Part shown: positions 26,039 through 30,478 of the stretch, in pieces | How the letters are laid out: every line of letters starts with the position of its first letter | Position numbering within the stretch: the first letter of the stretch is position 1 | Assembly (NCBI RefSeq): GCF_030687395.1 | Contig: NZ_CP117430.1 | Location: forward strand, 4,092,001-4,156,000 | Source of the DNA: Pseudomonas wuhanensis | Lineage (GTDB): Bacteria; Pseudomonadota; Gammaproteobacteria; Pseudomonadales; Pseudomonadaceae | Length of the DNA: 64,000 nt | Reading direction: 5' to 3' | Translations under genes and position numbers: made by a program | The notes under the pieces: generated by a model | What the model was told of the DNA's origin: nothing | Databases searched by the model: none | The model's input: only the letters and a program-made list of their open reading frames with translations

Positions 26039-26107
26039 TGGCTGACGAGGGGTAGTTCTCCCTGGTGGCCGATACTCTTGGGCTAGCAACTGAAGGCAGG
26101 TTACTCA

Positions 26108-26314
26108 ATGCTGAAGAAACAGCTGGAAAGCAAAGTAGCGACTGCCGCTGAAATTGAGCGCTCCATCCAAGCCCTGAACAAAATGGCAGAACGCCTTTGA
26201 GGTGATGGCCGGGAAGCTGAGGCGAAAACCCTGCTTGATGCCTTGGACGCACTAAACCGGGCGCTTGATCGGATCAGGATTGGAGAGAGTCGAAGGACTT
26301 CGACTCTTCATTAA
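26108..26314 (+). pseudogene. Small gene interrupted by an in-frame TGA
   Basis: An ATG at 26108 opens a helical, charged frame (MLKKQLESKVATAAEIER) that meets TGA at 26198-26200 and then continues in the same frame with the same helical, Ala/Leu/Asp-rich character (EAEAKTLLDALDALNRALDR) to TAA at 26312-26314, 69 codons in all. A CGA-to-TGA change would explain it. Function unknown. It could instead be a real 30-residue peptide. Confidence 0.5.
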
Positions 26315-26571
26315 GACGCATGAGTCAATCAGCGGTTGAGATGAGGGCTGGGCGAATAACCCAGTTGGGATCGACGCTAACGAACAGCAAGCAAGTCGGC
26401 GAGCCCACAGACGGGCGGGTCCGAAAAAGATCTTACCCATAGATGTTTAGCTGCGCGTTTAAGTACACCCGGTGTTACTTCATCGAGGCTACAACGCCTT
26501 GCGTCGTTGCCTACGCCTGCGCCAGAATCCGCCGGCTTGTGCGCTTTGGGTACAGGTTTTATTGTTTCCTG

Positions 26572-26796
26572 GTCACTGAAAAACAGTGATCGGGTTTGGT
26601 AGCCCGTACATGAGATTTGCACAGCATCACCATTCGCGGCGTTTTTTCGTCTCGGCTTTATGGTGGTCATGCACAGGGCACCTTCGGGTGCGCCGGTCTC
26701 CTCATGTCCCGGTCTACCAACCTGCGCATGGCCGCCACCCATCGTTTGGTAGCGAGGTTGGATGGCTCCTTACTTATGGCATGAGGAGTTTTATCT
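26572..26796 (+). ncRNA. Structured leader / candidate C4-like antisense RNA upstream of a DUF6124 gene
   Basis: The segment is full of pairings: TCACTG/CAGTGA hairpin near 26574-26588; CGGG/CCCG (26591-26606) enclosing loop TTTGGTAG; ATCACCA (26626-26632) with TGGTGGT (26661-26667); a GCACC-TTCG-GGTGC tetraloop hairpin (26678-26691). CTACCAA (26714-26720) can pair with TTGGTAG (26746-26752), or the overlapping CCAACCT (26717-26723) with AGGTTGG (26755-26761), but not both. CTCCTCATG (26698-26706) is the exact complement of CATGAGGAG (26780-26788), the ribosome binding site of the next gene; one wobble and one more pair extend it to 11. The layout resembles phage P1/P4 C4 antisense RNA; family membership is inferred. 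The preceding 26315-26571 holds no recognisable gene. Confidence 0.55.
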
Positions 26797-27159
26797 ATGT
26801 TCAAACCTACACCCAATCCGCCGATCACAGACCCGACATCCCCCTACGAATCCCTCGATTCAAAAAAGCTCCACGAAGCCGCCGAGCTCGCCCTCGACCA
26901 CTACCTCAACCCGGCCGCTCAGATCATGGCCTCCACCAACGAACCCGAGCCCATGTACCTCGCCAACCCGAAGTACAACACCGAATCCCTACTGGCCAAC
27001 GCCAGCGAAACACTCGGCTCGGCTACCGTCATGCTCAACAATTTCGCGGCGCTGCTGGAAACCTCACATCGCAAGACCCTGCTGGGCATTGCGCAAGTGG
27101 TCATGCTCGGTGAACTGGCGGTGAACCAGGCACTGGATCACGTCGAATTGAAGGAGTAA
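26797..27159 (+). CDS. DUF6124 (formerly DUF3077) family protein
   Basis: 120 residues from ATG 26797, preceded by the strong site CATGAGGAG. The sequence opens MFKPTPNPP, with later AAELALDHYL and NASETLGSATVMLNNFAALLE, matching the small Pseudomonas family DUF6124, of unknown function and often present in several copies per genome. Helical, acidic, no signal peptide. Its ribosome binding site is complementary to the upstream leader, so translation is probably gated. Confidence 0.75.
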   Translation: MFKPTPNPPITDPTSPYESLDSKKLHEAAELALDHYLNPAAQIMASTNEPEPMYLANPKYNTESLLANASETLGSATVMLNNFAALLETSHRKTLLGIAQVVMLGELAVNQALDHVELKE

Positions 27160-27167
27160 TCGTCGTG

Positions 27168-30401: not shown

Positions 30402-30478
30402 TGGTCGGGACGGAGTGATTCGAACACTCGACCCCTAGCACCCCATGCTAGTGCGCTACCGGACTGCGCTACGCCCCG
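30402..30478 (-). tRNA. tRNA-Pro(GGG)
   Basis: 77 nt on the minus strand, 5' CGGGGCGTAGCGCAG, acceptor stem pairing with CGTCCCG before A and encoded CCA. Anticodon loop ATGGGGT gives GGG. Its 3' end faces the remnant-rich region 26-30.3 kb, the side where tRNA-targeting elements insert; TGGGGTAAAAGGTGGGGTAAATTC-like sequence sits just beyond it (30330-30353). Confidence 0.95.

Follow-up and report, generated by a model that had tools for sequence, protein, structure and literature searches.

A phage-type C4 RNA as the probable private repressor of a DUF6124 gene in Pseudomonas, one of dozens of near-orthogonal chromosomal copies

How is a small gene of the DUF6124 family in Pseudomonas controlled by the long structured leader that precedes it? 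C4 is a small RNA by which phages silence their own anti-repressor gene, and an earlier note on this DNA, a stretch of 64,000 nucleotides (the window) from a genome of 6.59 Mb in a single contig (G000), had described the leader as a C4-like RNA able to sequester the ribosome binding site, with alternative stems that suggested a switch. The evidence assembled here makes it very probable that the leader encodes a C4 of the phage type that privately represses the translation of DUF6124 and is one of dozens of chromosomal copies nearly orthogonal to one another.

The leader and its C4 element

The likeness to C4 was borne out by the Rfam model (RF01695), which matched 26656-26742 on the + strand with 82.1 bits against a cut-off of 45 (E 1.4e-14) and spanned model positions 1-87 of 87, i.e. 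the full length. The segments a', b', a1, b1, a2 and b2 are present in the order of phage P1 and with similar spacing. Naming follows the P1 record and the accessible text of PMC5320573, a' being the single-stranded segment and b' the hairpin loop covering the Shine-Dalgarno (SD) sequence. The features of the locus are as follows.

26456-26545, + strand: conserved block 5' of the leader (alignment of 18 G000 loci, the window locus included, picked for similarity)
26537-26565, + strand: putative promoter TTGTGC, 17 nt, TATTGT (proposed from alignments read by eye)
26559-26610, + strand: c4-a1b1 element (RF03163), 46.7 bits
26596-26602, + strand: a1 target TTGGTAG, 7-nt exact complement of a'
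26608-26614, + strand: b1 target ACATGAG, 7-nt exact complement within the C4 loop
26656-26742, + strand: C4 (RF01695); 26661-26737 taken as the counterpart of the 77-nt P1 C4
26697-26708, + strand: b' loop, anti-Shine-Dalgarno, UCUCCUCAUGUC (model loop columns 42-53)
26714-26720, + strand: a' segment CUACCAA, exact complement of a1 and a2
26746-26752, + strand: a2 target TTGGTAG, in a small predicted hairpin
26778-26788, + strand: b2 target GGCATGAGGAG, with the ribosome binding site inside
26797-27159, + strand: DUF6124 gene, 120 aa (PF19619, 67.3 bits)

The segments that the earlier note had singled out lie where it had placed them, CTCCTCATG at 26698-26706, CATGAGGAG at 26780-26788 and TTTGGTAG at 26595-26602, and the UUCG hairpin reported ahead of the anti-Shine-Dalgarno stretch is present. 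Complementarity between the loop and the SD region was correctly given as extending to 11 bases with one G-U; for the window locus taken alone, 20000 mononucleotide shuffles were made of the 57-nt target, and 38 of them reached this length of pairing. The further loop at 26595-26602 can pair with CTACCAA as proposed, a1 being its exact complement. Matches of a' with a1 and with a2, and of b' with b1, are each exact over 7/7 bases, and GGU near the 5' side of C4 agrees with the GGW site quoted in the part of PMC5320573 available to us.

The c4-a1b1 element, 5' of C4, reached exactly its gathering score. isrK (RF01394) aligned over 26572-26646 with 36.7 bits, under its cut-off of 50, which places the window copy outside that family; the hairpin ahead of a T6 tract is weak here (-1.4 kcal/mol) and falls short of an isrK-type terminator. 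The block of about 90 bp at 26456-26545 is strongly conserved across the 18 aligned loci (example, CAGAATCCGCCGGCTTGTGCGC), and homology to relatives begins around 26444-26486. A consensus scan returned no promoter-like site and one terminator-like site, at 26534-26558 (0.6 expected). Two further observations concern the surroundings: a fragment at 26090-26300, which recurs at G000 2817164 (84%) and is matched in many genomes, is apparently unrelated to the C4 unit; and ARAGORN placed a tRNA-Pro (ggg) at 30402-30478 which is absent from the Rfam gathering-threshold listing.

Could the leader act simply as a lock in cis, with b' pairing with the SD of its own molecule and no RNA excised to act in trans? 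A single transcript is presumed to carry all the parts, and the b'/b2 duplex is strong (-18.2 kcal/mol). However, the C4 segment folds like the Rfam model (-43.4 kcal/mol, z -5.39), and in the minimum free energy (MFE) fold of 141 nt the C4 structure stays intact and the SD has a local partner instead of b', an arrangement that would suit a separately acting C4 better than a plain lock in cis. The P1 C4 is, moreover, annotated as a 77-nt RNA, for which the accessible text of PMC5320573 quotes processing by RNase P. We consider a cis-only lock improbable and favour an excised C4 repressor.

Covariation and specificity of the pairings

Comparison between loci gives the decisive evidence: other loci show the loop/SD pairing and the first of the two proposed stems again, with sequences that have changed yet still match, i.e. 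with the compensatory changes for which the earlier note had looked to homologous leaders. The comparison covered 127 loci, 48 from G000, two of which score below cut-off, and 79 from other genomes, taken among the best matches listed, a choice that favours high C4 scores; dropping identical b'-and-a' combinations left 105 distinct loci. As a control, partners were permuted 200 times, which keeps composition and leaves ancestry uncorrected, so that the permutation figures are not exact probabilities. Runs of at least 7 bases between a locus's own segments, compared with the highest permuted count, numbered 95 versus 14 for a'-a2, 91 versus 14 for a'-a1, 79 versus 12 for b'-b2 and 53 versus 8 for b'-b1. 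An exact a' complement was found in both a1 and a2 at 87/105 loci (permuted mean 5.4, maximum 13, ancestry uncorrected) and not in both at 18/105; the same loci hold 30 different a' 7-mers. By RNAduplex energy alone, the own target ranked first for 24/48 (b2), 9/48 (b1), 8/48 (a2) and 20/48 (a1); a' codes are often common to several loci.

The two mutually exclusive 7-bp stems from which a switch had been read are both exact in the window, and they fared differently elsewhere. The first, 26714-26720 with 26746-26752, is exact at its fixed position in 85/105 loci; the second, 26717-26723 with 26755-26761, is exact in just 2/105 distinct loci, the window locus included. Because the second stem is not conserved, a switch built from alternative stems is unsupported, and we rejected it. 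If a switch exists, it would more likely lie in a choice by C4 of a1/b1 or a2/b2 as its partner, or in the titration of C4 by a short isrK-like RNA.

The SD is locally paired in 86/105 predicted leaders (a count without shuffled control), and C4 may consequently not be the sole brake. CTCC occurs between a2 and the SD in 53 of the 105 leaders, compared with 6 in shuffled sequence, and in 39/105 loci, again counted without shuffled control, C4 is preceded by a T tract with a hairpin at least as stable as -6 kcal/mol. For 20 chosen loci outside the genus there was likewise a tendency of C4 to fit its own target, the mean a run being 6.8 (permuted 4.6) and the mean b run 7.5 (permuted 4.3); among these, L288 lacks a matching a2 and b2, and L275 and L283 lack a matching b2. 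Several first ORFs of these 20 loci resemble phage antirepressors on reading.

Within one genome, how far each C4 matches the targets of the others was counted among C4-led genes alone. In G000 the set comprised 47 loci (L055, a C4 without matching target, was left out), and at 7+7 bases 30/47 own pairs and 2/2162 cross pairs matched; at 6+6 bases there were 38 own and 24 cross pairs, and all 47 b' loops are distinct. In a second genome (G049; best 50 of 55 matches) the figures were 33/50 own and 0/2450 cross at 7+7, and 40 own and 8 cross at 6+6, with all 50 loops distinct. Own pairs thus fail at 7+7 in 17/47 and 17/50 cases respectively. Between the genomes 8 and 11 of 2350 pairs reached 7+7, compared with 2/2162 and 0/2450 within them, a difference that selection for orthogonality might produce; shared ancestry explains at least some of these, and two of the matched pairs (L036/L297 and L040/L311) align into their flanks.

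The two cross pairs within G000 (L033 to L039 and L064 to L077) are what might be expected if the C4 copies were chiefly a trans network on other genes, as has been proposed for Acinetobacter, and bacterial targets are suggested in the text of PMC5320573 accessible to us. Against this, the match of a C4 to its own target is far better than to other C4-led genes, the set compared. We therefore hold a trans network to be highly improbable as the chief role of the copies, and retain private repression of each C4's own gene.

Copies, downstream genes and flanks

The earlier note had treated the leader as a lone one; it is in fact one of about 46 C4 RNAs in its genome. In G000, where 150 of 1818 first-look candidates were scored, C4 matched 48 times at E 0.001 and exceeded the cut-off in 46 of these; DUF6124 matched 39 times. 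A C4 lies within 600 nt upstream of 33/39 DUF6124 genes, a DUF6124 gene follows 33/48 C4s, and an a1b1 match lies within 200 nt upstream of 40/48. Of 59 genomes of the same genus, filtered more strictly than G000, 54 have C4 (53 of them with a score above cut-off) and 26 have 20 copies or more; DUF6124 occurs in 47/59. Copy numbers of the two correlate across the 59 genomes (Spearman 0.886; 0.935 once DUF3077 is added): none has DUF6124 without C4, and 7 have C4 without DUF6124. The link is not one-to-one, since 6/39 DUF6124 genes of G000 have no upstream C4 and one genome (G009) has 38 C4s yet just 2 DUF6124 genes. Scoring was limited to 20 C4 candidates per genome in a wider set of 200 genomes of the phylum; 30 of these had C4, 28 of them with a score above cut-off, and 3 had DUF6124 (two of the same genus, one weak). 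A scan of genome contigs gave 473 confirmed relatives, of which the best 80 were kept; C4 lies 47-96 nt ahead of the start in 80/80 of these.

Five of the six G000 DUF6124 genes without upstream C4 (all but 1701655) were read against the 48 C4 RNAs, and none had a C4 in trans beyond 6+7 bases. Three DUF6124 genes (L079, the second gene of L032, and L081) carry an a1/b1-like hairpin before the start at sites where C4 was not found, and the 48 C4 RNAs gave no convincing trans partner for them. Separately, two C4 genes of G000, near 1331327 (L078) and 2429870 (L082), are split by one IS-like sequence; the inserts are identical over the 1223 bp compared and a 9-base direct repeat flanks that of L078. 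A Pfam search with the 411-aa ORF of the insert, probably on the wrong strand, gave no match.

First ORFs were scanned for 121 of the 127 loci (leaving out L055, L073, L075, L077, L137 and L157) and comprised 67 DUF6124, 12 DUF3077, 6 Bro-N and 36 that were none of these. The DUF6124 and DUF3077 profiles align with an hhalign probability of 98.2% (E 6e-14). A short first ORF occurs in 33 loci, in 24/33 of which a second ORF overlaps it by 4 nt (that of L091 is an apparently broken Bro-N). L034, L084, L090, L096, L098 and others have a leader ORF of about 52 aa (similar to MHALNPSKIRAAAHRAMALAALHANSSLATRL) with a 4-nt overlap with the next gene.

DUF6124 is under purifying selection, with a median omega of 0.167 over 2977 pairs of 80 sequences. 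AlphaFold2 predicted a helical hairpin at residues 62-86 and 90-114 (block-mean pLDDT 81-96; overall pLDDT 78.5, pTM 0.49). Searches gave no solved-structure match and no PADLOC match up to E 1 for DUF6124 (a Bro-N protein had one weak PADLOC match, 0.03), no PHROG, NCBIfam or toxin-family match, and no mention of the family in the literature searched.

Selection on the protein, many private pairs of antisense RNA and small gene per genome, and the P1 gene icd, which has the same position and is annotated as an inhibitor of cell division, would all suit a unit of the type I toxin-antitoxin kind, in which DUF6124 would be harmful and the C4 RNA its antidote. This would explain the many private copies and is compatible with private repression by C4. 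It sits less easily with a protein that is predicted to be helical and has no toxin-family match, and with the three G000 genes that have the a1/b1-like hairpin and no C4 found, a state that a toxic product would make costly. We give it a low probability.

That C4 is a phage family, and that some copies look broken (the reading frame of L031, L055 without its target, and the two with an IS-like insert), could also be read as the decay of a functionless prophage remnant. The covariation of the pairings and the omega value speak against decay, as does the neighbourhood: crude ORF calling around the G000 copies gave 95 ORFs, of which 79 were scanned, and the 25 of 69 families listed include no phage family, all being ordinary and none occurring more than twice. 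This reading, already disfavoured, is scarcely credible. In the window itself none of four local proteins had a PHROG match, giving no sign of a phage or prophage context there.

Comparison of relatives showed that the leader and the coding part have partly separate histories. The closest relative by protein among the best 80 of 473, from Pseudomonas sp. GM18 (L162; 98% identical), compared with window 26456-27162, is 97/93% identical in coding DNA and just 58, 70 and 65% in leader segments; for L181 and L185 identity is 93-97% in leader segments and just 80-81% in the latter half of the coding sequence. Either recombination between leader and coding part or rapid change of the leader may account for this pattern. 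DNA flanking the window unit aligned in one (L173) of the best 80 of 473 relatives. Among relatives found from the RpiR side (L244-L266, L268 and L272), C4 was absent in 25/25 over about 1.5 kb on the far side; unlike these, L173 has a C4 there.

A precise mobile element was also considered, and is unsupported: most paralogues cease to be homologous close to the stop codon, or else about 120 nt past it at REPIN-like palindromes, and no clean empty site was obtained. Palindromes (GATCGTTCCCACGC...) follow the stop codon of DUF6124 units at L037, L041, L049, L061, L071 and L046; we take these to be REPIN-like.

A proposed mode of action and known systems

By analogy with P1, Gifsy-1 and Burkholderia, as far as the accessible parts of those reports describe them, a single transcript would cover a1/b1, C4, a2/b2 and DUF6124, and C4 would probably be excised from it, as RNase P does in P1. 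The excised C4 could then bind the mRNA of its own gene by two short contacts, between the b' loop and the SD region and between a' and a2; this pairing would block ribosome binding and, we propose, normally keep DUF6124 low. The a1/b1 copy would probably compete for C4, titrating it and so setting a threshold, or might instead give a short isrK-like RNA that lifts repression. As most copies have their own a'/b' code, dozens could coexist in a genome with little predicted cross-silencing.

More tentatively, it is possible, though doubtful, that an RNA which serves phages in superinfection immunity has been adopted by Pseudomonas genome-wide, as dozens of mutually heteroimmune modules that each combine a C4 with a small protein of a DUF6124/DUF3077 superfamily. 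New combinations of leader and coding part seem to have arisen by recombination, and a genome may purge codes that are duplicated in it; the proteins might be antirepressor-, toxin- or phage-sensing-like effectors that fire once their private C4 is titrated, e.g. by an incoming phage or mobile element with matching a1/b1. On the likelier reading as private repressors, the units offer a directly testable answer to the question of chromosomal C4 targets, which in this genus would often be the gene right behind; they connect DUF6124 and DUF3077, both families of unknown function, with a control system of the phage type; and, with about 50 natural antisense-target pairs per cell and almost no predicted cross-matching among them, they form a rare data set on the diversification of RNA specificity.

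The closest known system is the c4-icd-ant (immI) region of P1/P7, which the window unit resembles in the order a1, b1, C4, a2, b2, in similar spacing and in the position of the b site at the ribosome binding site. The P1 record annotates a1 and b1 (both 'putative'), C4, a2, b2, icd and ant1 in that order, with a sites of 7 nt and b sites of 8 nt; as a positive control, P1 C4 was found to hold exact complements of a1, a2 and b2, and of b1 over less than its whole annotated length. The gaps in P1 and the window, respectively, are 7 and 5 (a1-b1), 66 and 46 (b1-C4), 3 and 8 (C4-a2), 22 and 25 (a2-b2) and 10 and 8 (b2-start), and the 4-nt overlap of icd and ant1 resembles that of the ORFs in the 24/33 relatives. 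In contrast to P1/P7, the window unit has no icd/ant antirepressor downstream and is not a P1-type immunity operon; its target is DUF6124, on the chromosome, in dozens of copies per genome.

In Gifsy-1 isrK-orf45-anrP an isrK-like hairpin leader likewise stands before C4, and the short-ORF coupling resembles the overlapping ORFs seen in many of the relatives (PMC4825925, accessible text); in Burkholderia cenocepacia isrK and C4 are one transcriptional unit, according to the available part of PMC4603805. The window copy differs from both in its isrK match below cut-off and its weak terminator. Weinberg et al. (2010) list C4 for Proteobacteria and phages, and their Rfam models of C4 and c4-a1b1 both match here; the accessible text of that paper (PMC2864571) gives neither copy number nor a link to DUF6124. 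The Group 1 C4-like sRNAs of Acinetobacter baumannii have many chromosomal copies with variable a'/b', and RNA-seq suggests their processing; their targets are left open in what we could see of PMC5320573, whereas the Pseudomonas RNAs mostly have a matched gene directly downstream. C4 RNA and its multicopy chromosomal form in A. baumannii are thus already known (PMC5320573, in part). No description of Pseudomonas C4-DUF6124 units was found in the freely accessible literature searched; new, as far as that search reaches, are DUF6124 as a target family, the pairing of dozens of copies across the genus with their own genes, and the scarcity of cross-matches among them.
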